Part shown: positions 32,327-59,251 of the stretch, one piece after another
Position numbering within the stretch: the stretch's first letter is position 1
Layout of the letters: the number at the start of each line of letters is the position of its first letter
Notes under the pieces: generated by a model
What the model saw: only the letters and a program-made list of their open reading frames with translations
Databases searched by the model: none
Told to the model about the DNA's origin: nothing
Assembly (NCBI GenBank): GCA_020744425.1
Contig: JAGMUV010000025.1
Location: 558,001-622,000, forward strand
Length of the DNA: 64,000 bases
Direction: 5' to 3'
From: Dactylonectria macrodidyma
Lineage: Eukaryota > Ascomycota > Sordariomycetes > Hypocreales > Nectriaceae
Program-made: the position numbers and the translations under genes

Positions 32327-33011
32327 GGCAATATTCTTGCTCTGTATATGGGGAAGTTAGTCGGTTTCTGGCGTATCATTTTTGGATTCTGATTCGGGAC
32401 CCGAAACTGAATAACTGCTTCAGCTTGCTCATTCCATCTCGCCCTCAATTGATGCGACGTCAAGTCGGAATAAATTAAATGCTCCTAGAACTATTTTGAA
32501 ACTATACGAGCCATGCACTATTGAGCCCTTGAAATCGCCGACGCTGCAACGCTCCAAGACTTATCTGTCACAAGGAGCCATCTTGCTCAAGTACTGGTTC
32601 AAACCAAAAGTTTTCCTACACTGTACATTCCTAGAGTGAAATGGTTGCTGGGAGGTGGAGCGGGGTTCATCAGACCATCGAGTGTCCAATTCTAGCTTGC
32701 AAATTTGCGTATGTAATGAGTATTATTGCCAATTAGCTGCTGCTTGCCACTGCCTTTGGAACAGTAACTGGGTCAGGTCCCGTCGGCCTATTGTTCGCCG
32801 TGGATCTTTGGAGAGTGCACTGGCCTAAATAGATACACTATGATGTGACGTTCGACCCTGTATGCCAAGAATGAGGCGCAGCTCCAGGCAGCTGAATAAC
32901 ATAGGTATCATATGATTAACCCCGCGCGAGGTTTATGGTTAAATACGGTCACAGCTAACATTAGTTCACCCAACACTGGTGAAGCGTTTGAGTCCTCCTA
33001 ACATCATCACT
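32327..33011. other. Intergenic
   Basis: No gene is supported. The interval separates two same-strand genes and must hold the 3' end of the first and the promoter of the second. Confidence 0.45.
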
Positions 33012-34232
33012 ATGCCCGTCACGGTATCCGTCGTCGACCACCCAGCTCGGCCCTGGCCAGTTTGGGCTCCGTATTTCCCCCAGGCCACAACCCCCAAAGG
33101 TCTTCTCAAAGAGGCCAGCCCTGAAGATTTCGCTCGCTGTAAGCGCATTCTCCAAAGCTCATTCTCAGACCGTACCCTTGAAGAGCATCGCACGTCAGCC
33201 TCGAAAAATGGCTTCGTTTGGGCTGCCTACGAAGCCTACAGCTACCACCATCATTTAACACTCCGCCCCGAGGATATCTGGTTCGCCATCATCGCGCAGC
33301 TAAGCTCCTACATCAACGCTAATGCTGAGAAACTACGTTCTTACTTTGTTGCACATGACGGGCAAAAGCATCTCTCGATCGAAATAGTGGAGGGTCCGAT
33401 ATTGGATGTGGACTTTGGGTATTTTGCTCAGCAGATGACACACTTGATCGCCGAGAACGTCAAGGATGCCGAGTTGCGCGCTTGGATCATGCCAAAATTT
33501 TCTACAACTACCGACACGGATCGCGTTACCGCCTCGGTCCTCTTTATGGGGGCAATGCAAAAGTACTTTTCGTACGAAGCTACTATAATCTGCGGTATCC
33601 CATCCGTAACACTACTTGGAGAGGTCACCGACTATGAAAACATTTTAGCGCGCCTGGACAAGCTCGAGCAGTTAGGCGACGAACCAACTCGATTTGCTAT
33701 CATGCTGAGACCGATCCTGCGCCGCATGATCCTGTCTTTCAGGGAGCCAACTAACCCAGAGGTCATCAGTTTCTGGAAAAAAATTGCGAACAAGTACGAC
33801 CTATGTGGCGACGAATCTTTGACCGGCTGGATCACCGCTTTTTGCTACTGGGACGCTCAAGGCAAAACTCGTTTCGGGAATACTCCGCCTGAGTTGGACT
33901 TTTATCTTGATGGAGTACGTTATCTCAAAGTCAAACTTGATGATGTGCCAGCCGGCTGCGTTACTGTGCCTGTGAAAGTTGTCGGTTATGGCAGGATCTA
34001 CCAATGCAGAATGCTAGCCGGTTCTCTCGGCATACAAGGTCTTCCAAAGAATTTGCCACAGGAACCGCCCGGCGAAATGCCGACTAAGGATGGTCAGCCA
34101 GCTCTTACACGGATCAGGCCAGTCACGGGATGGGTGATGTACGAAACTAAGTCAGATCCGAAGGGCATATGGAAATTCATTTCTTTTTGGAGACAATGCG
34201 GTGGGACCGTCGGAGAGGAAAGACGAGAATGA
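33012..34232 (+). CDS. DUF4419 domain protein
   Basis: Single-exon gene, 406 aa from the ATG at 33012; an upstream GTG in frame is not a credible start. The sequence carries segments typical of the DUF4419 family: YEAYSYHHHLTLRPEDIWFAI and AQLSSYINANAEKLRSYFV near residues 70-120, and ITAFCYWD and a VPVKV strand in the C-terminal half. No catalytic residues are known for the family that I could check, so no biochemical role can be given. There is no signal peptide or membrane segment. Neighbouring genes give no functional hint. Confidence 0.75.
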   Translation: MPVTVSVVDHPARPWPVWAPYFPQATTPKGLLKEASPEDFARCKRILQSSFSDRTLEEHRTSASKNGFVWAAYEAYSYHHHLTLRPEDIWFAIIAQLSSYINANAEKLRSYFVAHDGQKHLSIEIVEGPILDVDFGYFAQQMTHLIAENVKDAELRAWIMPKFSTTTDTDRVTASVLFMGAMQKYFSYEATIICGIPSVTLLGEVTDYENILARLDKLEQLGDEPTRFAIMLRPILRRMILSFREPTNPEVISFWKKIANKYDLCGDESLTGWITAFCYWDAQGKTRFGNTPPELDFYLDGVRYLKVKLDDVPAGCVTVPVKVVGYGRIYQCRMLAGSLGIQGLPKNLPQEPPGEMPTKDGQPALTRIRPVTGWVMYETKSDPKGIWKFISFWRQCGGTVGEERRE

Positions 34233-35071: not shown

Positions 35072-37004
35072 TCATATGGAGTACCTGTCCAAATTACCGC
35101 CACTCTCTGTACCCATCAAACATTCTGGCATCGTAAATCCAAAAGGCCAATCCCCAGATATCTGTAGCCATATGGACTGGATGTCTGTGAGCCTGGCCGA
35201 CGTGTCGCCTGTAGCAAATTTGATGGAAGCCTGTAAGTTTGGCAAAGATATTATAGACGGGTATCCATCACCAGGCTGAGGCCTAAAGTCATCTGACCCA
35301 TCGTCATCGGAATGAACTGACCCCGGGCCGTGTGGGCTCAGGATGTTCTCATGGACTTCACCCAGATATGCAGCCTTGTAAAGAGCGAGCATGACATCGA
35401 GAGCCATTGCCCACTGCTTGGCTGCCTTCCACTGAGGCACCCATGACGAAACTAGCTGCTGAATGAGGGTAAAGTAAGACTTGGCTTCCTCTTGTATTTT
35501 TTCTCCCGAGTACGTTTCGTCTTGGGCATATTGAATCCATAGGAACGTATTTGCAATAACGAGAACTGATGACGCAACCCAAATAGTTTGAAGTGATGAA
35601 AGGCCATTCTCTTGCTCCGGGTTCATCAGAAAAGTAAGCATTTCTCCAGCTTTCAAAGCATTTGAAACACAAACTTCAATGATAGACTGATCCCTGTGTA
35701 AATATGACCAACCGGCGGCATCCACAAGGTCACACAACTGGGTATATATTGCCAAGTGAGGCAAGTAACACTGGTGAGCGGCGCAGGCGGCACTGTATAG
35801 CACAAAGTGCATTGATACAAAGGGTCTCCCTTGGCCCAGCGTACACTGGCTTCTGAAATTTTCAATGCTCCAACGAAGGCTGGGGTGTAGCGAGTCAACC
35901 CAGGTCCTCAATGCACTATACCGCTTGTAGATGACGCTCTCGGGATCGGTGGGTGGGAACGTATCCATGCGTCGTCTTGAATAAACAGTAAAGTCGGCTA
36001 GGTCGCTCCATAGACATATGCTCCTGATGAGGTATGGAACCAGGCCTAGATCCGATGGACGTTGATAGGACGCAAGATCGCTCAGCATCACGCCTCTGGT
36101 CTCCTCCTGGTACACCAAAGATATGTCGGTTCCCGGGACTGGTATTTCGATGTTGCCGAGGTCAATTGTGCGATGCTTGGCCAAAAAGTTTGCTAGCGCT
36201 CGATCAAGAAGTACGCAAGCCCAAAAGACTCGCCGCCGGACTTCTTGTTCCTTGAGACTGTGCTTTTGGTGAAAATCTTTGTTGAGTCGCATGATCTCAG
36301 CCATTCTTATAGCCGTTCCAGCAAACAGCCAATGGCGTGACCCGGAATTAGAGAGTAACTCCGCTTGGGCAAGTATAAGGTTGCCTTGAATATGTGAAAC
36401 TGAGAAAATGGATTAGAGTCTCTGAGGGCAAGGCGACGCTATGAAAGATGGAGCTTACCACTTGGCTGATCTGATGATTCCTTTGCTAACGATCGCGCTT
36501 GCTGAATGTAATATTTACATACTTCTAGACCAGACGCAAAGCCAAATAGGCTCTGGGCCTCTTGAGTAGTCAGGTAACGACTGCAGAGAGCAATAATACA
36601 TGTTGCAAGCAACTGGGATTGGCGACATTTGCGTTCAAAATCTGGCGCATGGTCGAACGACGAAAAGTCAGTAGTAAAATGCCGTTGAAAAAAAATGTCA
36701 AGGCATGTCTTTAAGCCTTGTTCTGTGTTGCGTTCGGGAGAATCAGCCTCGTCTCCGATGGTAGATTTGGGCGTCAGGGCTGCGGCCCCTGGCTGGGCCT
36801 CTTGAGCTACATCTGGGGTCGACCAAACGCATGTCACGCCTCTCGATGTGCATCGTTTGCAGCGAGGCCGAATACCGTCGCATTTGGATTTGCGGCGTCG
36901 ACTGAATCGGGTCCGAGATCAGCAATGGCATCTTCCTGACGTTGTCGGGGTGACACTGACCACGCATCGCAAGCTTGTGGAGTTCTGACGAAAGTCCGAG
37001 GCAT
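35072..37004 (-). CDS. Zn2Cys6 regulator at the edge of the amino-sugar cluster
   Basis: About 604 aa, three exons on the minus strand: 37004-36961, 36901-36459 and 36399-35072. Introns are 36960-36902 (GTCAGT...TTCAG) and 36458-36400 (GTAAGC...CTCAG). The spliced zinc cluster has cysteines 12, 15, 22, 29, 32 and 39 (ACDACRRRKSKC, then CKRCTSRGVTC). Residues from about 85 onward show the fungal middle homology region, including SLFGFASGLEVCKYYIQQAR, RHWLFAGTAIRMAEIMRLN and EVRRRVFWACVLLDR. It is divergent from the serine hydrolase gene. The shared 422-bp gap holds three CGG-N5-CCG sites of the same form that recurs throughout the cluster. It is therefore the best candidate for the cluster regulator, probably with autoregulation. 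The regulatory role is inference. Confidence 0.85.
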
Positions 37005-37028
37005 TTGCTACTGGTGGGAAGGCGTGAA

Positions 37029-37039
37029 CGGCAAACCCG
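37029..37039 (+). promoter_or_regulatory. CGG-N5-CCG site 1 (CGGCAAACCCG)
   Basis: Inverted CGG half-sites spaced by 5 bp, the architecture used by Zn2Cys6 dimers. It lies 25 bp upstream of the regulator ATG at 37004. It shares the spacer pattern NWAAC with the other cluster sites. Confidence 0.5.
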
Positions 37040-37077
37040 ATGAGGTCGAAGATGGAGGTGGATTTGTGTTTGGAGGT

Positions 37078-37088
37078 CGGGAAACCCG
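37078..37088 (+). promoter_or_regulatory. CGG-N5-CCG site 2 (CGGGAAACCCG)
   Basis: Second site in the regulator/hydrolase gap, same orientation as site 1 and 39 bp away from it. Confidence 0.5.
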
Positions 37089-37123
37089 CCGTCTTTGACT
37101 CATCGATGGACACACGGCAGCCT

Positions 37124-37134
37124 CGGGTTATCCG
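37124..37134 (-). promoter_or_regulatory. CGG-N5-CCG site 3 (CGGATAACCCG)
   Basis: Exact match on the minus strand to the form found upstream of nagB, murQ and nagA. It lies 120 bp from the regulator ATG and about 293 bp from the hydrolase ATG. Confidence 0.6.
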
Positions 37135-37426
37135 CCCGCCTCCTGGTCGTTGTGACGCTGTCATTGGCTAGGTTAATTAACTTATCTGCCCACTTGGGTT
37201 AGATAGCGGGTTCGTATGAATCCCTAGGGGCTGGGGTGACATCGTGTGGAACCCCCCATCTTGTGCTTCTGGTCTGATTGCACACTGAGTTTCCTGCTTC
37301 TCTCTTATCCAACTGTGCAATTGCACTAAATAGGGTATGTTGATTGGCAGACTTGCGAGGGGTAGTTAGGAACTGAATCGGTGAAAGGAACTACGTGTCC
37401 TAGGGATACATTTATAATCACAGCGG

Positions 37427-38779
37427 ATGCTTGCTGGCTGGTGGATAATGTTCGTGAGCCTCTACCTACCAATTGTTATCATGAAGTTCTACAACTCCTT
37501 CTGGGCCATCCCCACCCTCTACGCATGCACCACTGGAGCAGATTTCGTCCTCAGACATGGAAGTCCCTCGTCGGTTGACATGCAGGCCCAACCCCTTCGA
37601 GACATGGTCCAGAATATCTCAGCATATGCCGAGCCGCGAAACTATGGAACCGCATCTAAAAATGAAACACGAGCTCTGGAGCCTGGCTCAGTCAACCTGG
37701 TGGCACGGTACGGCGTCATTGTGAGCTCCTTCGCCACAGGCAAGAGAAAGCTCTACGCCGACGCCAACGGGACGCTGCTCAATTCGACGGACCAAGAAGA
37801 TGCTACGCTCGATACTATCTATGATCTTGCGAGTATCTCGAAGCTGTTTACCGCCGTAGCTATTCTCCGAGAGGTTGACGCCGGGCGCATTGAACTACAC
37901 GCCCCCGCCGCCTTGTACCTCCCAGAGTTTGGAGTCAACGGCAAAGAGAATATTACCATCCTGAACTTACTCACCCACACCGGTGGACTCCTGCCACTGC
38001 CAACCCCCGATCTCTGGAAGTCCAATTACTCTTCCATTGATGAACGAGTGGCGACACTTCTGAGTTTACCTCCTCAGGAACCTGCCAACACCGTGTTCCT
38101 ATACTCCGATATAGGCTACATGACCTTGCGTTACTTGCTTGAAAGGGTGACGGGTTATAGCCATGAACTGCTTGTGTACTCGTACACTATTCCTCTAGGA
38201 ATGAAATCTACCTTCTACAACCGCGGAAATCTTGAGGGTCCTCTCAACCCTTTCTATCATCGAGTTGCGCCAACTGAGTTCGAAATTCAAGCTCAGGGTC
38301 TAGAGGAGCCACAGCGCCCGCAGCCGGTACGGGGGACGGTCCACGACGAGAATACGTGGGCCTTGGACGGAGTATCTGGCCACGCGGGCTTGTTCTCCAC
38401 GGTCGAGGACGTCGCCATCTTTTGCCAGATGATCTTGAACAATGGAACGTACCACAACTTCCGAGTCCTGTCTAAGCGTGCTGTCGATCTCATCTTTACG
38501 GATTTCAACAGTAAATTCCCCGGCAACAACTATGGTGCTGGCTTCGCTCTAAACCAGACGTACACGCAAGGTAGTATGAGAAGCTTGCAGACCGCCAGCC
38601 ACTCCGGGTTCACAGGAACCACTCTCGCCATTGATCGGCCGTCTGGCACGTTTTGGATTCACTTCAGCAACCGTGTCCATCCTAGCAGGTGGTGGTCAAC
38701 CAATAATCCTGCCCGCATGGCTCTGGGATATTGGGTTGCAAAGAGCTTGGGAAGAAGTGCGACATTCCCAATTTATTAG
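37427..38779 (+). CDS. Beta-lactamase-fold serine hydrolase (AmiE-like candidate)
   Basis: PF00144-type serine hydrolase, single exon, 450 aa. The acylation motif SxxK is S136-I-S-K139 (in YDLASISKLFTAV), the YxN-type motif is Y226-S-D, and the third motif HxG is at about H392 (ASHSGFTGT). TFNSK-, HTGGLLPLP and SGHAGLFST match the family. The N-terminus is hydrophobic (MLAGWWIMFVSLYLPIVIM), so secretion or membrane anchoring is likely; internal ATGs at 37448 and 37481 are alternatives. Many NxT/S sequons (for example NISA, NETR, NGT, NSTD, NYSS) fit an extracellular protein. In Bacillus subtilis the MurNAc operon includes AmiE, an N-acetylmuramyl-L-alanine amidase of this same fold. By context this protein may remove peptide from muropeptides, but an esterase or peptidase remains possible. 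Confidence 0.8.
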   Translation: MLAGWWIMFVSLYLPIVIMKFYNSFWAIPTLYACTTGADFVLRHGSPSSVDMQAQPLRDMVQNISAYAEPRNYGTASKNETRALEPGSVNLVARYGVIVSSFATGKRKLYADANGTLLNSTDQEDATLDTIYDLASISKLFTAVAILREVDAGRIELHAPAALYLPEFGVNGKENITILNLLTHTGGLLPLPTPDLWKSNYSSIDERVATLLSLPPQEPANTVFLYSDIGYMTLRYLLERVTGYSHELLVYSYTIPLGMKSTFYNRGNLEGPLNPFYHRVAPTEFEIQAQGLEEPQRPQPVRGTVHDENTWALDGVSGHAGLFSTVEDVAIFCQMILNNGTYHNFRVLSKRAVDLIFTDFNSKFPGNNYGAGFALNQTYTQGSMRSLQTASHSGFTGTTLAIDRPSGTFWIHFSNRVHPSRWWSTNNPARMALGYWVAKSLGRSATFPIY

Positions 38780-39571
38780 GGAATGAAGAACAATATTGGG
38801 GGCGTTGTGTAGATACCTAGCGTCGGAAAACCTGATTTGCTTCCCGAGTGTTGAAGAGCGGGTTTGCTGAGACTGCCTACATAATAATGCTACGTCATTT
38901 GTTGGACTGGCACAGAAGATAGCTATTAGGCGATTTGTATTTTCACCTTCAAACTAGAGATATAGTATGACGGCGAGACTTGCCTACAATGAAATCCGTT
39001 AGCCTACGAGTATTCTCGATATATCGCCTGCCAGTCCATGGACCTAACCACAGACTCAGGGAAGTTGCACCAGACGATGATCCGCAGAATGAGAATGGTT
39101 CCCCTGGTCTTGGAATATGCTGGGGTTTATTGCCACTCTGCAACAAGCTTACTACCAGGCTATTGATTTCGTTCCGCCAGGGTCAAGATTGCTACCACGA
39201 GCGCTAGGACCCAAACCCACGCTCTGTTCATGATTCATGGACAGTATCTCTGTCGGATAACCCGATGTGGCCCCCCAGGCATCGTTCAGTTATCCACTAA
39301 CTTGGAGAACCCGATGGAGACTCGGATCGAGATGTTGATTTGGTATGACGGGGCGCAAGTCCGTCTTGTCGGTAATTGCGATATGCCCAATAGGGCATGG
39401 GCTACATGTCGAGGAGACAAAAGAGTAGTGGTCTAAGTAATGAAACATTTACATCATGGCATTGCATTTATCATTCGCTATGTTTTCTGTGGCTTTTGGT
39501 CCTCCTCCAGTTAACTTTCTGAACTCTGTTTATCATCGAATATACTGTCTACCAACCGCTCCTCAACCACC
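38780..39571. other. Upstream region of nagB
   Basis: No gene is supported. It contains the CGGATAACCCG site at 39254-39264 and a one-mismatch copy (TGGAGAACCCG) at about 39303-39313. Confidence 0.5.
39254..39264 (+). promoter_or_regulatory. CGG-N5-CCG site 4 (CGGATAACCCG)
   Basis: Exact cluster motif, 307 bp ahead of the nagB ATG. Confidence 0.6.
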
Positions 39572-40784
39572 ATGAGGCTTATCATCCGCGATCGCGCCGA
39601 GGATGCGGCAACATATGTGGCCAGCTATATCTTGCAGCGGTTGAAGGAATTCGAACCGAGCCTTGCTAAGCCTTTCGTATTAGGCCTACCCACAGGTAGT
39701 ACCCCCATCAAGGTCTACAAGATTCTTGTTGATAAGTACAAGGCCGGAGACGTATGTTGGAAGTAAATAACCTTGGCGGAAGAGCGAACTGACATATTAC
39801 TTCCTGTATTGCCTTTTAGGTATCATTCGAACATGTAGTGACTTTTAACATGGTAGGCATTGCCGCTCATCGAAGTGGAATCATCCTAACTTTACATACT
39901 TGATAGGATGAATACGTCGGCATCCCTCGGGATCATCCCCAAAGCTACCACTCCTTCATGTGGCAGCACTTCCTCTCACATGTCAATGTTCGCCCCGAGA
40001 ACGTCCACATCCTTAATGGGAACGCTCTGGATCTGGAAATCGAGTGCGTTCAGTTCGAAGCTGCTATCCAAGAGATTGGTGGAATCGACCTATTTCTGGC
40101 TGGAATCGGCGAAGACGGCCATGTCGCATTCAACGAACCTGGTTCAAGCTTGGCTAGTCGAACTAGGCTTAAAACATTGACCTATGACACGATCGTCGCC
40201 AATTCTCGTTTCTTTGGGAATGATGTGAGCCAGGTTCCCCGAATGGCCCTCACTGTCGGTGTACAAACTGTCTTGGATGCCCGAGAGGTGGTTGCCTTCG
40301 CGCTTGGCACGCGAAAGGCCGTTGCTCTGCAGAAATGTATCGAAGGAGGTGTAAACCACATGTGGACTCTCTCTAGTCTACAACTCCATCGGCATTCCAT
40401 GATAGTTGCTGACGGGGACGCAACTCTTGAGCTTAAGGTCAAGACCGTTAAGGCAGGTATCTTCCCTCCAGACGTCGCCATAAAATATATTCTAATGAGT
40501 TTCTCCGGTAGTACTTCAAGTCCATCGAAGATATATCTATGGAGCAGGGGTTCGAGCAAAAACTTCCAAGCGAGCTTAGGAAAAGAGCCAGGTGGAAGAT
40601 GAACGGATGCATTGTGGTTGATGACGAAGAGTCTTTTTCTTATGCGAATCTGAAATCGACTGATATTCAACCCTATCTGCTAAATGGGAATGACTCTGGT
40701 CTTGCTTGTACTTCCATGAGGGCAATTACTCCCGAACCGTCCTTAGATAATATGAGATCTAGGATTAGCCAGGTCACCACTTGA
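39572..40784 (+). CDS. nagB: Glucosamine-6-phosphate deaminase
   Basis: Cytosolic isomerase/deaminase converting GlcN-6-P to fructose-6-P and ammonia, the last step of amino-sugar breakdown. About 343 aa, four exons: 39572-39751, 39820-39852, 39907-40452 and 40512-40784. The second exon is only 33 bp. Motifs in order are [22 protein letters not shown] (split by an intron, contains the proton-shuttling Asp), [30 protein letters not shown] with the catalytic His, and [10 protein letters not shown]. The third intron (40453-40511) fits only with a GC donor (AAG|GCAGGT), joining KVKTVK to YFKSIED. The Kozak context is CACCATG. The C-terminal 55 residues are longer than in the bacterial enzyme, as usual in fungi. 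Confidence 0.92.
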
Positions 40785-41191
40785 TCATTTCAGTCCTAGC
40801 CTGACTCATTAGCCAAGATTGAATATTGAATATTGAACCTATGGAATACTCTTCGTAGTTTATGAAGCGGTAATCGGGATAAATGTGAATTGCATGGTAT
40901 CATATTCTTTCAGTCTTCGGGCCTTTATTCACATAATGACAGTGACTATTTATATTGACGACCCTCTGTCGTATTATCGCAAAAGGGTGAAGGCAGGGGA
41001 GTTTAAGCGGAACTTGATGAGTGATTGCCTTTATTACGACACTCTCCGTAGTAGCGCGGGTGAAATGTAAGTTTTTTTGAAGGATGCAATCTAGTAACAC
41101 AGCGAATTCTTGAGAAGAGAGAAAGTTACGAAAATGAGGCCAAAAAGTAGGAGTCACTAGCAAGAAGATGCAGGATAATAGGCAAATTTAC
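40785..41191. other. Convergent intergenic region
   Basis: Between the 3' ends of nagB and the minus-strand carrier gene. No gene or site was recognised. Confidence 0.45.
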
Positions 41192-43250
41192 TCAAATGTC
41201 CTCCTTTCCAACGGGCTTCATGCCAATCTCGCATCCCTTCTCATCTTTACCGTCCAGTGTCTGCTGAACTGAATGCATTCTGAGGGTTTTCCTGTCTTGC
41301 CACCACACGACACAGATCCAAGCAGCAAGACTAACGGAGACTACGATCATGGCGATGGAACCTTTGCGGAACCCCTGCGTTTGTTAGTCAAGGCCCTAGT
41401 CTGTAGAATTTGGGATTTGGAGCTCACCGTTGCAGCATCCGCGGCTGGGTAGAGAGTAATGCCCCAGAAAGAGAATAAGACTGAAGAACCCCCTGATGAT
41501 CACAAGTCAGCAGTTGAATAGTAATCTTCTACAACTAAACTCACCATTCATTGCGTAGAGAATAACGGCCCTTGCCGCATCATCGCCATCTCGCGCGAGA
41601 ACTTTGTTGGCCCATGTAAAGACAACGGGTTGGATCAAGTAAGCAGTGCCAGCCAGATCTATGCTGTCAGTCGAGGCCTTGCGATTGAACTCCAGAAACT
41701 TACAGTAAGCAGCCATCTTCCCCCCAGATCCGATCGTGTCCCAGCAAAGCAAGACGATGCAGCCAATAATCTGAACAGCGCATGCCATGAACCCATAGGG
41801 AGCATGAATTCCTGTTGCGTCGATTGCCACAGAAGTCAAGAGAGTCAGGACAATGCCTACGGTTGGTTAGAGAAATTGCGTCCGGTTATTGAGGACATCG
41901 TGAGAGTTGTTGTGAGTTTAAGCATACCGATTGCAGTGATTCCAAGAGGATAGGTATTATTCTGGGGAACAGTGAACAAACCCGAAGCTTTCATCCACAG
42001 AACCATACAAGTCTGCGTTGAGAAGGCTTCCAATGCGCCTCCGAGCATCCAGAAAACAGTAAAGATCCAGCTTAAAAGAAAAATCAGTGCCATCATCCCC
42101 ATTATATTGAGCTCTAGCTTACAAGTTTGGTGTGAAGAGAACTCGCTTGACCAAGGACGGGTCAATGTTGTGGCCTTCGGGGTTCTTAGGCGGCAGTCGG
42201 CTTAGAGCAAGCTCCTTCTCATGCGGCTTTAAGTAGAACGCTTTGGTAGTCTCTGGAAGATCAGGGAAGAAAATGAACCCAAAAATTGCTACCGGAATCG
42301 TGATTATGCCGTCGATGATGAAGGACTGATCAGTCACGATCGTCAGTTTGTCCAACTCCTCGCCCTTGAGAAAAATCACTTACCCATCTCCAACCGGGGA
42401 TCCCGGAGACCCCGTCCATAGTGTTCCAAATGGCTGTCATCATGATACCTGAAACACCACTAATGTTACTTGCTGTTCATGATATTCACACGGTATGCGA
42501 CCTACCGGCGAACATGGTGCCTACCATCCCGGAGGCTTGGAAAAGTCCCACACGTTTCCCGACCTCAGGACCCTTGTACCAACTGCCAATGATGTACTGC
42601 GTGCCACTGTAGGTAGACGCTTCCGCAATACCTTGAAAGAAGCGGACGGCTGCCAGGTGGGAAAACGAATTGCAAGCGGCGCAGACCATAGTCAAAAGAG
42701 CCCAAAAGAGAGTCATCAGAGGAAACCAGATGCGGGGAGGGACCTTCTGAATGACTAGACCATGGGGAACTTGGCCGATGATATCTATCATTTGTAAGTT
42801 GAGATATTGAGTTTACGGGTCCGGCCTAGAACTTACAGCCGACTGCGAGGCATGTCACTAAGAGGTTGTATTCGTTACCAGAGAGGTTGATATCCTCCTT
42901 CATTCCAGACACGTAAGCATTGCCAAGAACGGCTCGATCTAAGCATTGCGGTTAAGTTCGTTCCTCTGGGCTATGGGAGCGCAATCACATACCCAAGTAG
43001 TTGAAGAAAAAGGCAACACAACAATAAGTCTGATGCATTGATTAGGAACTGCGACTGAAGACGCTTCGGACCGGAATGGAGCGTACTAGAATGAAGAAAT
43101 CGATTTTGCGCAGAAGCTGTTGGGTATAACGTTAATACCAACTGCCCAAGTCTGGTATAAGGATGTAGCTTGACTGACCTTGCGCTCTTCCGGGGAGTCA
43201 GGCGCTTCACCCCAGACAGCCAGACGGAGCTTGTGCAGTCTCGCACTCAT
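41192..43250 (-). CDS. MFS carrier, anion:cation symporter (ACS) family
   Basis: Twelve-helix importer of the allantoate/pantothenate permease type, about 481 aa, in 12 exons with 11 introns of 45-71 bp, the most fragmented gene in the window. Exons (minus strand): 43250-43179, 43116-43087, 43029-42993, 42938-42837, 42784-42506, 42448-42384, 42325-42123, 42070-41928, 41856-41704, 41658-41545, 41492-41428 and 41374-41192. Family segments after splicing include FFFNYLDRAVLGNAYVSGM, GYIIGQVPHG, RFFQGIAEASTYSGTQYIIG, GVSGIPGWRW, FPDLPETTKAF and ARAVILYAMNGG. ACS carriers take up organic anions with protons. MurNAc and anhydro-MurNAc are carboxylates through their lactyl group, so this is a good candidate importer for the cluster, by context only. 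It is divergent from murQ, with a cluster motif in the shared gap. Confidence 0.87.
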
Positions 43251-44193
43251 GGTAACTTGAAGAAAAGGCAAATGCCCCAATGAAGGCAATGTTCTTGAGA
43301 GACGTAAGTCTAAGTCAGGGAACGGGTAGATCGTTAAAAAGTCTGCTCGAAAAGGGGCGGACGAAGGGTTTAATAACCAACGGAAACTACACCGTTTCCA
43401 GCAACGTCTCCGCATGCTATATCTGGGGAATTTCTCTTATCTGAGCTCGACGAGCCTCTCGAGCCCGTCCCCCGCAAAATCGAGATTAGCGTAAAGAAGC
43501 CGAGGCCACAGCCAGAGACGGGAAAGGGCGGGGGCCTGTTGCCGTAGGGGGATCGGGTTCAGTCCACGGAACATGCGAATGGGAGATCAAATCATTAGGG
43601 ACAGAAATTTCTCACACTAGTCCTATTTCGTCCCACTAGTTGTCTCTTCCACGGCGCCTTCTCTCTCGTCTAGGACATTGAACCACCTAGATTCGTTATA
43701 CAAACCTCTTTACAGATGTGCTCACCGTCTTCTACGGAAACATATTTAGGATTCTGGCTCCATGGCAAAAATTTAAGTCGGTGTCTTTCTTTCGTCCTGA
43801 TAAGGCTCCAGCGATGGTATCATCGATTTTCTCTTTCCGCTAATGAGTTCGGGTTGAGGCGGATCTTCGCCCCACGTTGCTAAGTCAATCGACGGATAAC
43901 CCGACATCGGCCCTAGGCATCCTACCTTCGAAGCGAATAAGGGGTGATCAAAGAGTCTCGGGCCTGATAAACAGGGCTTACCAGGAAGGGGAGCGGATAG
44001 CCGAAATTGGCTTCCTAGGCGACAACGATAACGTTCATTTGCTCATCCATGAGGATGGCGACCTACACACCTGGATTCTTCGAAATCATCCCAACTTATT
44101 TTCGTACCTCTTTCATTGCTTCAATTTCTCAACTCTGATACGCGTGATTCTTGACGTCGACTCATACAGCTGGGGGTGAAAAGGACTTGCACC
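43251..44193. other. Divergent promoter, carrier and murQ
   Basis: Shared 943-bp upstream region holding CGGATAACCCG at 43893-43903 and a shorter relative CGGATAGCCG at about 43994-44003. No gene is supported. Confidence 0.5.
43893..43903 (+). promoter_or_regulatory. CGG-N5-CCG site 5 (CGGATAACCCG)
   Basis: Exact cluster motif, 290 bp ahead of the murQ ATG and about 640 bp ahead of the divergent carrier ATG. Confidence 0.6.
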
Positions 44194-45567
44194 ATGCCTC
44201 TCTTAGCAACTAACGGGTCATCCACCCAGAATCACCACGTCTCACATCTACAAAATCAGAATGCAAGCAAGGAAAACGGCTACAAATTATCCGAATCAAT
44301 CAAAACTAACAGTTTCTCAACAAACGGGGCCTCCAATCGGTCAAATAGTCAGAGGGAAGGACCCTTGGAACTCGCAAGTCTCCAGACTGAACAAAAGAAC
44401 CCCAAAACAACGAACATCGATGACATGTCCTCGTTAGATGTGTGCCGTAGGTCTTCTTTCTACTTACTTTCGACGAGATTTTATTAATACTCAACGCCAC
44501 GCCAGGCATCATCAACGAAGAAGACGCTTCCATAGCTGTTGCGGTTCAAGCTTGTCTGCCACAAGTTGCTGCGGCCATCGACATCATTGTGCCTCGACTT
44601 GCAGGAGGCGGTCGAGTAATATACAGTGGGGCAGGAACTAGTGGGAGGTAGGAAATCGTCCATTCACATTTGCTTCATCATATACCTAACATCAACATCT
44701 AGACTCGGGATCCTGGACGCATCTGAGATGTAAGTTCATGTGTCAACTCGTATTAACCTAACCAACTAATGATCTAGCCCTCCCACTTTCTCGGCCCCTA
44801 GGGAGCAGTTCATCGGCCTCATCGCCGGGGGCGACTACGCCATCCGAAATGCCGTCGAAGGTGCCGAGGATTCTGGGGAGATGGGTGCTTCTGACCTAGC
44901 AAAGTTGATTCCGCCACTTAGTAAAGATGATACCCTAATTGGTATTGCCTCGTCAGGAAGGACGCCTTATGTTCTAGGCGGTCTCAAATATGCCCACTCT
45001 GTCGGATCTGCAACTGTGGGATTGGCTTGCGTTCAACCCAGTGCACTCAGAGGTCTTTGCGACGTTTTGATAGAGTGCTTGACCGGCCCTGAAGTTGTCA
45101 CTGGAAGCACTCGTCTGAAAGCAGGGACCGCAACAAAGATGGTGAGGCACCCCGGCAGATAAGCTTTATATGAAGCTTACCAAATTTCGCTGCTTAGATC
45201 CTCAATATGATATCGACAGGCTCACAAATTCGCAGCGGGAAGACATTTGGGAACCTCGTAAGTCCGCTCTAATTACAGTATTTCAGCTTCAGCGATAGTT
45301 CTAAAAACGAGATAGATGGTCGATTTACAAATGTCAAACGAAAAGCTCAGGGATAGAGCACGTCGTGTTGTACGAATGGTAGTTCCATCATCATCATCAG
45401 CTTTCGACATTTTAGACGATGACGTCCTCGATGAAGTACTAGCCCGGTGCAACGGCCACGTGAAGCTTTGCATTCTAGTAGCATCGTTGGGTTGTTCTCC
45501 GGAGGAGGGTAGAGCCAAGCTGGAGGCGTCATTTGGATCACTGCGCCAGGCACTGGAGACAAAGTAA
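44194..45567 (+). CDS. murQ: N-acetylmuramic acid 6-phosphate etherase
   Basis: Lyase-type etherase that splits MurNAc-6-P into GlcNAc-6-P and D-lactate. About 365 aa in six exons: 44194-44446, 44506-44647, 44703-44729, 44778-45141, 45198-45257 and 45316-45567. The family body runs from about residue 57 and reads LQTEQKNPKTTNIDD, CRIINEEDA, GGGRVIYSGAGTSGRLGILD, IAGGDYAIRNAVEGAED, ASGRTPYV, TGPEVVTGSTRLKAGTATKM and GNLMVDLQMSNEKL. The two glutamates used by the bacterial enzyme are present at about E140 (LDASE) and E171 (VEGAE), 31 residues apart as in the E. coli protein. The first 56 residues are an Asn/Ser-rich extension absent in bacteria. MurNAc is not made by fungi, so the substrate must come from bacteria. 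The close bacterial likeness with six fungal-type exons suggests an old transfer. Confidence 0.93.
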
Positions 45568-46245
45568 AGGGGGAAATATCGACCCGATGTGTTGCATTAG
45601 TTCTCTTCATTTTCGTTTGGTTTGGATAGAAATAGAGATCGTTTAGTTTTGAAATTCTAACCAAATGTGTAAGTAATTAAATCACCGCCTAGCAGCCATT
45701 CTGAGAGTCGAAGTTAATGAAACTCGATTGGTGATGTAGCAATAAAGAGGATGGAATCTTAGGATGAGAATTACTTGATACATGCCTTCTAGCTGTGAGT
45801 GTATCGGCTGCAGTGAGCGCGAGGAGATGTCCCGATCTTTGTGACCTAAACGACACCCAACGAGACCCGTCGGGTTTTCCGCTCGCCAAGAACTTAAGTA
45901 CACCAATCTCAAACCGAGCGACTGACTCAAGCAGCGCCTAGACTGTCTTCTAGCGGGGGAGCCGACGCTAGCGTGTATGCGAAGGACCTAAGACCACGCA
46001 GAACTGCGCTGCCGATATTGGAATCATGGATGAGCCATAATATTTCGATCACCGCAAGCCAGTCTGCCTATTTACGTCGCCAATGGGCTGGAATGATTGA
46101 ACCTTGTACGCTATTGGCTCTCATGTCACGGTTGACGACAAAATTAATGTTGACCTAATCTCCTAAACCCCTCATCCCAGCCTGACAAGGTCTAAAATCC
46201 CGCCTAAAATAGCGGATAATACAACATCTCCTCGTCTGTAACAAA
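45568..46245. other. Upstream region of anmK
   Basis: No gene is supported. It holds the minus-strand motif CGGAAAACCCG at 45871-45881 and a half-site CGGATAA at about 46213-46219, close to the anmK start. Confidence 0.5.
45871..45881 (-). promoter_or_regulatory. CGG-N5-CCG site 6 (CGGAAAACCCG)
   Basis: Variant with A instead of T at spacer position 2, identical to site 7. It lies 365 bp ahead of the anmK ATG. Confidence 0.5.
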
Positions 46246-47743
46246 ATGGTCGCACTCAATGTTTTGGGGCTCAACTGTGGCACAAGCATCGATGGTATGT
46301 TTTCTTTATTTCTTCTGAGCAACTTAGCTTGATTCAGATCACCCGACAGCCTCTCAAGATCCACAGCTAGACACTGTTCAATCGAAACGCTTCTCTAACA
46401 ATCTTACAAGGCATTGATGTTGCGCATTGTCGCATCTCCTCCGTTGAGGGTTCCAATGATGTCAGGATTGAACTTCTTGGATCCGCAGAGGTTCCGGTAG
46501 ACCCTGCACTTCGTTCGCAGGTCCTTCATCTTTGTCGGCCAACCCAAGAAGGCGCCGCAACTTCAATGGCCGAGATATGCGATCTCAATTTTGCTCTGGG
46601 GCGAGAATTCTCTCGAGCCATTGCGCTTTCCGGTGTTTGCCTTGAAAATGTCGATCTCATAGCCAGCCACGGACAAACTTTATGGCATCAGCCATTGGGG
46701 GAAAACCGATCTACGTTGCAAATGGCAGAACCCGCTGTAATTGCTCAGAAGACTCAAAAGTGGGTTGAAACATGACCAGTCAGTTGCGGATCCGCTAAAG
46801 AGATATTGTTAGAACTGTTGTCAGCGGCTTTCGAGTTGCTGAACTTGCCGCTGGCCGGCAAGGAGCTCCATTGGCAGGTTTCTTTGAAGCCGCGTTGCTG
46901 TCTGATCCTCACATAACACGAATTAGCCAAAATATTGGTGGCATAGGTATGAAAGTCGGTGGTCTGGCATCCCTTGCATTGACATCTTGGACAGGCAACG
47001 CGACTGTTTTACCAGCATCGGGAAATCACCGAGGAGAAAAGGCTGCGTCATCATACCTCGCTTTCGATACTGGCCCTGGCAATGTTTTCATTGATGCTGC
47101 CATGCGTATCCTCACTGACGGAGCCAAACACTACGATTGTGACGGAGAGCTAGGTGCCCTTGGTGAACCGGATATTGATGGCGGCATCGTTAGTCATTAC
47201 CTGGATAACGAGCCATATTTTCAGCAAAGCCCACCAAAAACCACTGGACGAGAGCTTTTCAGCGACGATGTAGCACTTTCAATTGTTAAGGAGATGGAAT
47301 CTGCTGGAAAATCACACCAGGCTATCATTGCGACCATCACCCGCATCACTGCCGAATCCATTGCTAGGGCGTACGAAAGTTTTGTTCTTCCGTATTTAGG
47401 AGACGACGGTAACATAGACGAGATCTACATCTGCGGCGGCGGAGCCTACAACCCTAATATCCTGAGGCATCTACAGGCAAGGTTTCCAAAGAGCCGAGTC
47501 ATGACGCTCGACGATGCTCCCGTCAAGCTTGATCCGAGCGCAAAGGAGGCAGTCTTGTTCGCATTGCTCGGATTCCTTGGTGTCTGTGGCCGAACTGTTC
47601 AGATTGCTGCCGACTCGGAATCAATGGAGCCAGCTGTGATGGGCGTTGTCACCCCTGGGTCCAACTACTGCGACGTGTTGCGAGCTGTTGTTCATGAGCC
47701 GGGTTTCGGTGTTAAAGGTGTTCTTGGTCGGATCTTGATGTGA
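46246..47743 (+). CDS. anmK: Anhydro-N-acetylmuramic acid kinase, apparent frameshift
   Basis: Kinase of the ASKHA fold that opens 1,6-anhydroMurNAc and makes MurNAc-6-P with ATP. Exons 46246-46294, 46410-46759 and 46813-47743 (introns of 115 and 53 bp). Motifs are LNCGTSID|GID (family GTSxDG), SHGQTLWHQP, TLQMAEPAVIAQKT|TVVSGF, GRQGAPLAGFFEAAL, NIGGI, FDTGPGNVFID and YICGGGAYNPNIL. The frame carrying GIDVAHCRISS runs into TGA at 46445-46447, and the conserved reading resumes one frame off with VEGSNDVRIELLG from 46443. Removing one base in the run near 46437-46442 would restore about 442 aa. It is either a real frameshift or a sequence error. Bacterial enzymes have Asp in RxxDxAxGGQGAP, where this one has Glu. 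Family identity is firm, functionality uncertain. Confidence 0.85.
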
Positions 47744-47990
47744 TAGATAGCAGCGTACCTAGTAACAGCCCCAGATTGATATCACTATTCCATCCCTTAA
47801 AGGGGCGCTGTTCTTCAACTGCACTGATAAAGCGATTGTAAACTGCCAATATGCACTGGCGCTTCGACTTCGCAAGGATGAAGGAACCCTCAGATGCCGA
47901 AGAAAGTAGCCAGACATCTAGAGGAAACTGCTAGAGTGATGTAGCCGGGTCGTTCCCTGATTCGCTATCACCCGCCAGGGTGGAGGAGGC

Positions 47991-48001
47991 CGGAAAACCC
48001 G
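47991..48001 (+). promoter_or_regulatory. CGG-N5-CCG site 7 (CGGAAAACCCG)
   Basis: Cluster motif variant identical to site 6, about 398 bp ahead of the nagA ATG. Confidence 0.5.
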
Positions 48002-48053
48002 ATCACCCACCCAAAATAGCGCTGCTCAGCTACAACGGATCGATTTTTGAAAG

Positions 48054-48064
48054 CGGATAACCCG
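48054..48064 (+). promoter_or_regulatory. CGG-N5-CCG site 8 (CGGATAACCCG)
   Basis: Exact cluster motif, 335 bp ahead of the nagA ATG. It is spaced 63 bp start to start, about six helical turns, from site 7. Confidence 0.6.
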
Positions 48065-48399
48065 TTAATAGGTGGACTCTCGGCAGATGGACGAATAAAT
48101 CAATATGAAATCGGAAAGGGGGTGGATGGTATCGTGTGCTCGGTCGTGCGGAATTCAGCGGATGGAGACTCACTGCTGGTGATAGATTCAAGGTCGGTCA
48201 GCGCCACACACGTGGGATACAGTTTGGCGTGTCTGGGCTTTGTGTAAAGGCGTCTGGTGTTACGAACTTAATGAATATAGAATGTCGCCACAGCCCACAC
48301 CATATCAGGGCGGTTGAAGGAAAGTAGTCTAGAGGGCCAAATGCCTATCACTTAATTACTAAAAAGCTCGACTTGTCTCTGTCTTGTACCCTGCTTGTC

Positions 48400-49823
48400 A
48401 TGCCAAGCACGGTCCTTCTGAAGCAGCGCGGTGGTATCACCGCCTTCACAAACTGCCGTCTCGCCCGTGGAGATGAACTTGTAGCTGAAGATCTATGGGT
48501 GAGCTCTGAGTCAGGCACTATCATCTCCGGCCAAGCGACTTTCTTTAGTGCTGGCATCCTCCCCGACAGAGTCATAGATCTGGACGGCCGCATCGTTTCT
48601 CCCGGGTTGATAGATGTACAACTCAATGGGGCTTTCGGCTTCAACTTTTCGACTTTGCCCGAGGACATTTCGGAGTATCCCAAGGCGCTGGCTGAAGTTA
48701 GCAAAAAGCTGGTTACTACCGGAGTGACCTCATACATCCCGACCTTGACTACACAAAAGCCAATCCTCTATCAAACAGTAGGTCAAATGTCATGAGAAGA
48801 GAGGAATACGTATTCTAATAGATGCCGAGATCTTACCTTACCTCAGGCCATCAACGTCCCGGAATGCCAATGATGGAGCGGAATCACTTGGGGCACACGT
48901 GGAGGGCCCGTTCCTCAGCCCGACGAAAAATGGCATACACGATGCAAACGCACTCCAACAAGCCGAGACTATCCAAGACATCGAAGCCTGCTATGGCAAA
49001 GATAACCTGGGAGTTCTAGGCGATCCGAGCAAATGTCCTCCTGCAATCAAGAAGATTACAGTTGCGCCTGAGCACGGTAACATGATGAATATTATTCCAG
49101 AGCTGACTTCGAGGGGCATTATTTGCTCTATCGGACATTCCGAAGCAACATATGAAGAAGCGTCGAGCGCCGTCGCCGCCGGAGCAACAATGATTACACA
49201 TCTTTTCAACGCCATGAGGCCGCTTCACCACCGGAACCCAGGAATCTTTGGCGTACTTGGTAGTGCTGAAGCACTTCCACGGCCGTACTTTGGAATCATC
49301 GCTGACGGCATCCACCTTCATCCTGCGGCTATAAAGATTGCTTTTAGTGCACACCCGGACGGGTTCATTCTAGTAACAGACGCCATGCACCTAGTGGGCT
49401 TACCAGATGGTGTATATCCTTGGACCAACGGAGGTGTGGACAGTCAAATCGTCAAGGTCGGTCCAACGCTGCTCCTCAAGGGTACAAACAAGATTGCGGG
49501 GAGGTGAGTACATTGCCACAAACATTCAAATTGGTCAGCTCCGACATCCTGACTGACTTAGTTCAATTACTTTGATCGAGTGTGTCAATCGGCTTCTCCA
49601 GTGGTCTGGGACTTCTATTGCCAGGGCCCTTAAGACGGTTACAGCGACGCCTGCATCCATGCTAGCTGTGGGAGAAAGGAAAGGATACCTCAAACCAGGG
49701 GCCGATGCGGACTTGATAATCTTATCAGAGGATCAAGGCCCCGGTGGCGTCGCGCAATTGATCGTTGATGAAGTGTGGAAGCTAGGAACAAGGGTGCACA
49801 AACGGGAGGGGGGAATATCGTAG
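48400..49823 (+). CDS. nagA: N-acetylglucosamine-6-phosphate deacetylase
   Basis: Metal-dependent amidohydrolase converting GlcNAc-6-P to GlcN-6-P and acetate. About 437 aa, three exons: 48400-48777, 48830-49503 and 49562-49823. The first intron ends at the acceptor CCGAG, joining LYQT to ILPYLRPS; the second is GTGAGT...CTTAG. Motifs in order are FTNCRLARG, VSPGLIDVQLNGAFG, GVTSYIPTL, GAHVEGPFLSPTKNGIH (H149, E151), CSIGHSEATYEEA, THLFNAMRPLHHR, IADGIHLHP, the catalytic Asp in LVTDAM and LKPGADADLIIL. All expected family elements are present and length is normal. It lies last in the cluster, with two regulator-type sites upstream. Its product feeds NagB. Confidence 0.94.
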
Positions 49824-54292: not shown

Positions 54293-56028
54293 TTAAGACT
54301 GTTCCCTGTGGTTCACTACGACTGAAGCAGTTCCTTTTTCTGCCGATTCTTCCAAGTCCCCAGTGAATTCCTCTGGTTGGTACTTGCCAAACTTGCGAAG
54401 GCTGATACCCTCGTTGAACATGCGATCAACTTGCTCGAGCGACTTGCCCTTGCACTCGGGAACACAAAAAAACACAAAGACGATGGCCAAAGCAAGGATT
54501 CCCGCAAAGACGAACCCAACCTTTGACCCAAGGCCGGCGTATTGGTCATAAAGAAGGTAGGGGATGCTGAAGCTGACGAGAAAGTTGGTCACGACGTTGA
54601 CGATGGAAGCGGTGCGTTGCGACGCATCTCGAAGACGTAGTGCTGGGATCTCGGTAGTGATGACGTAGTTGAGAGGTGCAAAGGCAAAGGTAAAGCCGGA
54701 GCCAAAGAGGGTAAGCATGGCTACGATGCCTGATTTGACGCCGAAGGATGGATTGGAGACGGTTCCAAGCGCCCCCATGGTAACGATTGCCGAGAACATC
54801 CATCCTGCACTGGTGAACAGAAGTGGGCTGCATCAAATTAGCCATGATCAGGATGGTATCAAAATTGCAACCTACCGACGGCCAAGTCGGTCGACGAGAT
54901 ACAAGCCAGTGAATGCAGCAGTGAGGTTGACACAGGCATTGACGATAGTCATGGTGAAGGGGTTGACAGTTCCAATGTCCCGAATGAAGATGGCGCCGTA
55001 GGTCGAGGCGAACGCTTGACCTGTCGCTTGCTGGAAGAAGTTCATGGCGACAACGATGGCTGTCCGCTTGAGATTTTTGCCCTGGAAGAGCTCGACGTAT
55101 CTTCCCTGCTCGGGTTCATGTTCCAGTGCGTATTGAAGAGCGGCAAATTGCTCGTCGATCTCGGCCTCGGTTTGTTTCCCCTCGCGCAGCTTTCCAAGGT
55201 TGGCACGGGCTTCTTCGGTTCGATCTTTGGTGAGCAACCATCGCGGAGACTGTACCTGGTTAGCTCGGAAGAACCTCGCAGTGCTAGTATTAGTCGTACC
55301 TCTGGGATGAAGAAGATAGATGCCATCACAACGACGGGAATGATGAAAAAGAGGCCAAAGGGGATTCGAAACGATTGATTGCCGGATAGAGTGCTTGTGC
55401 CTCTGCAGACACAGGCCACAATTAAAGTACCCGTCTGATCAAGTTAGAGTGGCGGCGCAATACATTGGTGGAACAGGAGGAATTTACCATTAAGCTGAAC
55501 TGGTACGAGCCGACAGCGAATCCACGAATCTCGCGAGGCATGATCTCGGACTGATAGACAGGAACAACAGCAAGCTCCATGCCGATGTAAATGTCTGATG
55601 ATGCCCATGTCAGCGAATAAATAGCGGTGAGTGCGCTCGAACTTACAGTTGAGAATTCTAGTCGCCATGATTTGTTCCTTGCTCACTGATGTGACAGCCA
55701 TGATGGCCGGAACCAAAGCCCACGCACTCATACCAAACATGCACCACCTTCGGCCCCATCGCTCGCTGACCAGGCTGCCGATGATGACTCCTGCGCCGAA
55801 GCCGATATAGTTCAGGCTGTTGAAGAGCGAGAGCCAAGACGGCGAGATTTTGTAGGTGTCAGTCTCGGCATCATAATCACCAAACTGAGTCTGGAATGCC
55901 TGCATGGCCTGGGTATTGTTGTAGGCAGCATTGTCGAAGCCGTAGTTGAAGGTTGACACGGCGATGACGCCAAAGGCGAGGGCCAGGTGGCGGTTAAAGT
56001 GTCGGAGAATTCTGTTTTCGGACAACAT
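54293..56028 (-). CDS. MFS sugar transporter
   Basis: Proton-coupled hexose/disaccharide carrier of the fungal sugar porter family, about 510 aa. Five exons on the minus strand: 56028-55647, 55594-55488, 55434-55300, 55249-54876 and 54827-54293, with introns of 48-53 bp. Diagnostic segments are STFNYGFDNAAYNNTQAM, the loop motif GSLVSERWGRRW, VPVYQSEIMPREIRG, PESPRWLLTKDR (spliced), NFFQQATGQAF, GLYLVDRLGRR and the C-terminal VPECKGKSLEQVDRMF. The ATG at 56028 gives a rather short N-terminus. The frame is open further upstream (LLEPDHGSSDAM) without an ATG, so a small 5' exon may be missing. It is divergent from the double zinc-cluster regulator and near a beta-glucosidase, suggesting uptake of a glucoside or its sugar. 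Confidence 0.88.
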
Positions 56029-56245
56029 GGCGTCGGATGAGCCGTGGTCTGGTTCCAACAAGGCGAAGTGAGGATTCGGGTTGTCGATTCTTTGGTGTCT
56101 TGGAATCGACTCAACTTGGAAAGTTGGGATGTTGGTCTATTGATATACCTGGCAGGCTCAGGGCTCTCAAGCCTGACAGCATGATACCCCACAAACCGTG
56201 CGTATCACGAGTCACGCTCGCGAGAAGGTAGCGTTGTTCTAGACC

Positions 56246-56487
56246 CTGTCCTCCGGGGGAAGGAAAACACCGCACACACTAATGACGCTTGTTATAAAAT
56301 AAGCAAGCAATAAGAGCTACATTACTCCTAAGTTAGAAAATAAAATATATATATAAAAGGCCATAGATTAAACTAAATTAAGCATTAAATTCTAATAATC
56401 CATCATCCTTTATGAAATTAATATTAAGAATGTAGAAGAAGTGATGCTCCCAGGTGTGTCGTGTTTTTCTGTCAGCCCCTGCCTGAA
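56246..56487. mobile_element. MITE-like element, copy B
   Basis: The left end TGTCCTCCGGGGGAAGGAAA is followed by ACACCGCACACAC. The right end TGTGTCGTGTTTTTCTGTCA is followed by GCCCCTGCCTGAAG. Both ends match copy C and the reverse of copy D. The interior is AT-rich and non-coding. It sits in the promoter gap between the sugar carrier and the regulator gene and may carry or disturb control sequence there. Confidence 0.62.
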
Positions 56488-56703
56488 GGCGGGAGACTTG
56501 CAAGTCTTACCCCATGGGTTCAAGGTAAAGTTCTGGGGTAAGTGGAGATCGATAGCTCCTAAGCGCGGAGCGTTGTGCGGATGTCGGGGGGAAGTGCATC
56601 CCCCGAGATGAATTTTCTCTCCATCTCCGCCCGACTTCCTCTTTTCTTCGCCCCAACCTGACGCTGTCAGGTCTTGAAGCCTGTTGTTGGGTCTTGAAGC
56701 ACA

Positions 56704-59141: not shown

Positions 59142-59251
59142 AGAGAAGTGAGATCGTGTCACAAAGGCATAAATGCGTAGCTGGAATTTACCAGATGTGT
59201 GTATTTCTATAAAGTGAATTTTGAAGACGTGTTGAGACTAGCTGTTCAATC

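Follow-up and report, generated by a model that had tools for sequence, protein, structure and literature searches.

The window analysed here is a stretch of 64,000 nucleotides from the fungus Dactylonectria macrodidyma (C18:558001-622000 of a 77.3-Mb genome in 77 contigs), which is the one fungal genome that the analysis covers. It holds a cluster of seven complete, intact genes, in the order Zn2Cys6 regulator (-), serine hydrolase (+), NagB (+), major facilitator superfamily (MFS) carrier (-), MurQ (+), kinase (+) and NagA (+), whose spliced models have their outermost ends at exactly 35072 and 49823 (Table 1). The original prediction, made from the letters of the window, that MurQ, NagA, NagB, an MFS carrier, a beta-lactamase-fold hydrolase and a Zn2Cys6 regulator adjoin each other here is thus borne out, with family cut-offs passed. 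Introns were placed by homology and splice signals only; the modelled splice sites are all GT-AG, bar a single GC-AG in NagB. A kinase model of 446 amino acids with a 41-bp intron was dropped in favor of the one that homology points to, with a 53-bp intron and an additional, in-frame intron of 48 bp, and a 40-bp intron in NagA was replaced by one of 52 bp. The GC content of the cluster (0.47-0.52) falls within the range of the window (0.44-0.55), and base composition along the window reveals no compositional island at the cluster.

Table 1. Genes and promoter motif sites of the cluster, in window coordinates.
Feature	Position	Strand	Basis or location
Zn2Cys6 regulator, 604 amino acids	35072..37004; exons 37004-36961, 36901-36459, 36399-35072	-	gene model; Zn_clus and Fungal_trans
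Three CGGNWAACCCG sites, at 37029, 37078 and 37124	37029..37134	.	shared upstream region of the divergent regulator/hydrolase pair
Serine hydrolase, beta-lactamase/PBP4B (YfeW) kind, 450 amino acids, single exon	37427..38779	+	gene model; family profiles
CGGATAACCCG site	39254..39264	+	318 bp upstream of the NagB start codon
NagB, glucosamine-6-phosphate deaminase, 343 amino acids, 4 exons (one GC-AG intron)	39572..40784	+	gene model; family profiles
MFS carrier, 481 amino acids, 12 exons	41192..43250	-	gene model; family profiles
CGGATAACCCG site	43893..43903	+	shared upstream region of the divergent MFS/MurQ pair
MurQ, five modelled introns	44194..45567	+	gene model; family profile; E. coli alignment
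CGGAAAACCCG site	45871..45881	-	375 bp upstream of the kinase start codon
AnmK/levoglucosan-kinase family kinase, 426 amino acids	46246..47743; exons 46246-46294, 46411-46759, 46813-46946, 46995-47743	+	gene model; profiles; trees
Two sites, CGGAAAACCCG at 47991 and CGGATAACCCG at 48054	47991..48064	+	upstream of NagA
NagA, N-acetylglucosamine-6-phosphate deacetylase, 437 amino acids	48400..49823; exons 48400-48777, 48830-49503, 49562-49823	+	gene model; family profile

The promoters of the cluster share a motif, CGGNWAACCCG, of the CGG-N5-CCG type. It occurs eight times in the window, always in a cluster promoter and at least once for each of the seven genes; the form CGGATAACCCG is found four times in the window, every copy again in a cluster promoter. 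The sites lie at -301 to -409 in the five forward genes, at -25 to -120 in the regulator and at -643 in the carrier. Against the eight observed, dinucleotide-shuffled versions, 200 in number, averaged 0.145 sites and never had more than 2. Nor is the motif frequent in general: the 77-Mb genome has 173 sites, compared to 302 for the same pattern read backwards. The Poisson probability of eight sites in 11 kb is about 3e-18, an optimistic value in that the motif was picked post hoc, although the genome-wide count came only after that choice. Among the 100 of the 173 sites that were listed, the sole other pair less than 2 kb apart is C23:773276 and 774554. The set apparently forms the signature of a regulon, in which the seven genes would be switched jointly, and its CGG-N5-CCG form suggests that it is bound by the cluster's own Zn2Cys6 protein, which carries a Zn_clus domain (37.5 bits, cut-off 21) and a Fungal_trans domain (81.9 bits, cut-off 23; both Pfam).

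NagB (386.3 bits to TIGR00502, cut-off 236.9) and NagA (246.5 bits to TIGR00221, cut-off 225.65) are extra copies, the canonical pathway for N-acetylglucosamine (GlcNAc) being encoded elsewhere. Contig C1 carries another NagA and another NagB with their outer ends about 11 kb apart. A GH3 gene, an NDT80/PhoG gene and a hexokinase gene share the same stretch of about 17 kb, interspersed with other open frames; this gene set matches that of the ascomycete GlcNAc cluster, given as hxk3-dac1-dam1-ron1-nag3 in the available part of its description (PMC4950302). The window copies are 70, 62 and 55% identical to those on C1 over three segments of NagA, and 59 and 61% over two segments of NagB. No hexokinase, NDT80/PhoG or GH3 is present among the seven cluster genes, in agreement with the original prediction that this is not the usual fungal GlcNAc cluster; a GH3 gene with a PA14 domain, about 9 kb past NagA, lacks the motif. 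The two pieces of the C1 cluster that were searched (L025 and L026) contain no CGGNWAACCCG site. Since the GlcNAc pathway is present on C1, the window copies probably serve something besides it. A third NagB is found on C56 (L030:4390-5175), with one CGGCTAACCCG site, the only motif site of that piece, at L030:7874; beside this gene, the frame L030:8279-9850 resembles a hexokinase by eye, and matched no NCBIfam model.

The window cluster contains a MurQ, which passes the equivalog cut-off of its NCBI profile (353.9 bits to TIGR00274, cut-off 302) and, aligned with the E. coli enzyme, keeps both glutamates at positions E83 and E114, which we take to be catalytic. Glucokinase regulatory protein (GKRP) is a relative of MurQ, with hits of up to 85 bits in the PDB, and the cluster protein might in principle be a sugar-phosphate binding regulator of that kind, in a duplicated pathway for GlcNAc or anhydro-GlcNAc; however, it scores 274 bits to Haemophilus MurQ, has the length of bacterial MurQ (its N-terminal extension aside), exceeds the equivalog cut-off and possesses both glutamates, which makes this alternative highly improbable. 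The extension comprises about 57 polar residues (window 44194-44366) that are not in E. coli MurQ.

MurQ has a single place in the genome, apart from a weak partial match of 24.6 bits on C7, and its five modelled introns and its location on a 1.1-Mb contig rule it out as a bacterial contaminant. Its best bacterial matches, from GTDB genomes of diverse phyla, reach up to 53% identity in the best segment, and a tree of 42 rows (the fungus, E. coli, and 40 of the 55 long hits among 80) does not place the fungal protein (support 0.48), so that no donor can be named. If MurQ was acquired by transfer, these two observations suggest that this happened long ago. With one MurQ place and its weak partial companion in the genome, a kinase and extra copies of NagA and NagB adjoining it, and all motif sites of the window in the cluster, the grouping of these genes is more than chance.

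The serine hydrolase matches the Beta-lactamase family (170.4 bits to PF00144, cut-off 27) and has the motifs SISK (SxxK, at 136), YSD and HSG. Its best NCBI model is PBP4B (NF002968), whose cut-off of 385 it does not pass with 137.3 bits; it is 31% identical to E. coli YfeW (PBP4B), which lies in the gene order murR-murQ-murP-yfeW. Its solved relatives are assorted beta-lactamases and esterases at no more than 70 bits, and do not tell its reaction. The protein is probably secreted, because it has a hydrophobic start and eight N-glycosylation sequons. Matches to it occur in 32 of 39 genomes, all 39 of which were chosen for MurQ. Fourteen of its loci were inspected and ten scanned with Pfam (the frames of the remaining four run off the end of the stretch); NamZ, an exo-N-acetylmuramidase, is part of the same protein in nine of these ten best relatives. 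A relative also occurs in eight of 80 bacterial MurQ loci: two as NamZ fusions, four as GH3 fusions and two as stand-alone proteins. The two counts overlap by one (L131 is the gene L032:873-3278), and both come from MurQ-chosen genomes, with no control rate for NamZ or GH3 among other beta-lactamase-fold proteins. By these fusions, serine hydrolases of this branch tend to be associated with glycosidases that act on wall sugars.

The carrier scores 131.6 bits to MFS_1 in Pfam (cut-off 33.4). A crude hydropathy scan finds seven segments over threshold, where about 12 are expected of an MFS protein, and the label is kept on the Pfam score. Its best NCBIfam model is the D-galactonate transporter TIGR00893, with 120.4 bits against a cut-off of 395; a carrier for anions would be apt for a sugar that bears a lactyl carboxylate.

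Such a sugar is N-acetylmuramic acid (MurNAc), which is made only by bacteria; fungi make chitin, and no MurNAc. We read the cluster, with reasonable confidence, as a regulon that lets the fungus feed on anhydro-N-acetylmuramic acid (anhydroMurNAc) of bacterial walls. The sequence as such establishes which genes are present, that they are intact, that MurQ has its two glutamates, that NagA and NagB are paralogs, and that the motif is enriched. Judged by families and context, the secreted PBP4B-like hydrolase would trim wall fragments and the MFS carrier import the anionic anhydro-sugar; the kinase would open the 1,6-anhydro ring and phosphorylate the sugar to MurNAc-6-P, MurQ would convert this to GlcNAc-6-P and D-lactate, and the dedicated, extra NagA and NagB would yield fructose-6-P, acetate and ammonia, all under a Zn2Cys6 protein that would bind CGGNWAACCCG in every promoter, its own included. 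The findings thus support a MurQ-NagA-NagB route that is dedicated, has a carrier and a regulator to itself and stands apart from the canonical GlcNAc cluster, and this route most likely leads from anhydroMurNAc, not from free MurNAc, to fructose-6-P. The same genes might instead detoxify or modify bacterial muropeptide signals rather than feed the fungus, and the probably secreted hydrolase, which has the promoter motif too, would suit that purpose; a full chain down to NagB and a carrier are however typical of catabolism, and this explanation is hardly probable at all.

The points that weigh against a regulon for anhydroMurNAc concern the kinase, the motif site in front of it, the supply of the sugar, and the basis of the reading as a whole, the DNA of one fungus. 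The original prediction called the kinase AnmK, of which two things stand: it belongs to the AnmK family of Pfam (231.1 bits, cut-off 24; a match that is not diagnostic, as levoglucosan kinase (LGK) also scores well on AnmK models), and it keeps, as D202, the aspartate equivalent to position 182 of PaAnmK, which we take to be catalytic and which is likewise kept in LGK and in both paralogs of the genome. As a plain family label, AnmK was rejected on PDB scores, NCBI cut-offs and the tree. The closest solved structures are LGK, with 309 bits against 134 for AnmK. The kinase remains under the cut-off of all 14 NCBI AnmK equivalog models that it matched; to the best of these it scores 341.4 bits, against a cut-off of 387 that LGK passes with 400.2. 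In a tree of 23 rows it is sister (100/100) to a pair formed by LGK and a paralog on contig C43 (99/95), and not to bacterial AnmK; a second, quicker tree with an extra LGK sequence agrees (0.999 and 0.987). This sequence, 4yh5, is a near duplicate, excluded from the 23-row tree and included in the second tree and in the residue comparison. Seven AnmK-typical positions are lost only in the cluster kinase (eight with one of the LGK sequences), among them an Asp replaced by Gly138 and an otherwise invariant Asp replaced by Ala287. The site in front of its gene is the AA variant, and not the commonest form of the motif.

These data could mean that what stands in the cluster, by chance, is a kinase for levoglucosan (1,6-anhydroglucose), and that MurQ, NagA and NagB use MurNAc-6-P from another kinase, such as a hexokinase. 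Besides the structures and the tree, this would find an analogy in the available part of a study in which fungal proteins named AnmK were assayed for levoglucosan kinase activity: in yeast extracts, the R. toruloides "AnmK" had activity well above the empty vector, whereas the A. niger protein and the L. starkeyi LGK itself were near the empty vector (PMC9476349). The database name AnmK is uninformative for this reason. However, the genome already has an LGK sister in the C43 gene, which carries LGK's own loop, the cluster kinase gene shares the promoter motif, and the cluster kinase keeps His109 and Gln120 (PaAnmK 100 and 109), which are present in all 19 AnmK rows; these include the distant AnmK-like clade L124-L127, which was excluded from the 15-row residue count and also carries His and Gln. 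Both LGK sequences of the PDB and C43 have Leu and Thr/Cys at these positions, and the cluster kinase is without this loop. Overall, the residue counts point in both directions: five AnmK-typical positions, His109 and Gln120 included, are kept only in the cluster kinase, against the seven that are lost only there. A chance levoglucosan kinase is unlikely.

From its context and these few residues, the cluster kinase appears to belong to the fungal branch and to have retained the AnmK sugar loop, and C43 appears to be a true levoglucosan kinase; His109 and Gln120 may have a role in binding the sugar, and Leu with Thr/Cys, seen in two LGK sequences and C43, may be what defines LGK. In bacteria, a relative of the kinase is found in 24 of 80 MurQ loci, a count that has no control loci beside it. 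A third member of the family in this genome, on C10 (L027:7679-9019, 436 amino acids, single exon), is very divergent; its loop SHGQT is changed to YDGQT, and it is without His and Gln at the two key positions.

As to supply, SLT (GH23) enzymes leave anhydroMurNAc ends, and GH24 enzymes leave reducing ends, which an AnmK-type kinase does not open. The profile search of the genome found no match to NamZ, GH25 or Amidase_2, which removes NamZ and GH25 as supply enzymes. It found one SLT place (C34:4353988-4354251; 46.9 bits, over cut-off; open frame of 269 amino acids) and five places of the phage-lysozyme family GH24 (C34:4035542, C41:69655, C22:58369, C4:523286 and C4:457163), three of them without internal stops in a search that ignores introns. 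All these places are on other contigs; release of the sugar from the wall is thus not encoded within the cluster. The GH24 muramidases would yield reducing MurNAc, unusable by the AnmK-type reaction, and the SLT-domain protein on C34 is a possible maker of anhydroMurNAc ends; the sugar could come from it, or from fragments shed by bacteria. The path claimed in the original prediction is accordingly complete only from anhydroMurNAc to fructose-6-P, and the title of that prediction went too far with MurNAc, since reducing ends are beyond an AnmK-type kinase and free MurNAc would need another one.

The nearest known system is that of E. coli, murR-murQ-murP-yfeW with AnmK, in which the genes for a regulator, MurQ and a hydrolase of the PBP4B type are likewise neighbors and for which the same chemistry is expected. 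The fungus differs in having intron-bearing genes, an MFS carrier in place of a phosphotransferase system, a Zn2Cys6 protein in place of MurR, NagA and NagB as part of the cluster itself, and a kinase of the LGK clade. With the canonical GlcNAc cluster, as far as the available part of its description goes (PMC4950302), it has homologues of NagA (dac1) and NagB (dam1) in common; it has MurQ and the kinase in addition, and is without hexokinase, NDT80/PhoG and GH3. Eukaryotic use or capture of MurQ is also on record for other lineages: free-living protists as well as a rumen ciliate have MurQ and AnmK (PMC7052976, PMC6925433), and Camponotini ants have murQ, the transfer of which is stated to be previously unreported (PMC13320244); the accessible parts of these sources describe no such cluster. 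In Monascus purpureus, g1905 is annotated as murQ, under chitin biosynthesis, and no cluster is mentioned in the part of the source available (PMC9159588). A search of mostly open-access literature, by titles and the beginnings of abstracts, found no fungal cluster for MurNAc or anhydroMurNAc. What would be new is bacterial chemistry inside a fungal regulon.

If the reading as a regulon for anhydroMurNAc is true, bacterial walls serve this fungus as food, a matter of relevance to the turnover of necromass and to competition between fungi and bacteria in soil, and fungal genes currently named "AnmK" gain a natural function. Levoglucosan kinase, known as an enzyme for a pyrolysis sugar, would gain a likely origin as well. 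The Lipomyces starkeyi enzyme, the closest solved relative of the cluster kinase, has neither the His nor the Gln that the latter keeps in its AnmK loop. It is conceivable, and we put it forward as a tentative proposal, that filamentous fungi have a dedicated, transcriptionally wired pathway for peptidoglycan sugars, and that LGK is a duplicate of its anhydroMurNAc kinase in which His and Gln were lost.

On its left, the cluster is flanked by a single-exon DUF4419 gene (window 32943-34232) without the CGGNWAACCCG motif. Past the cluster, a second small group, with no CGGNWAACCCG site between its ends (window 54293-61820), consists of a sugar transporter (-), a Zn2Cys6 regulator (+) and a GH3 gene with PA14 (-).

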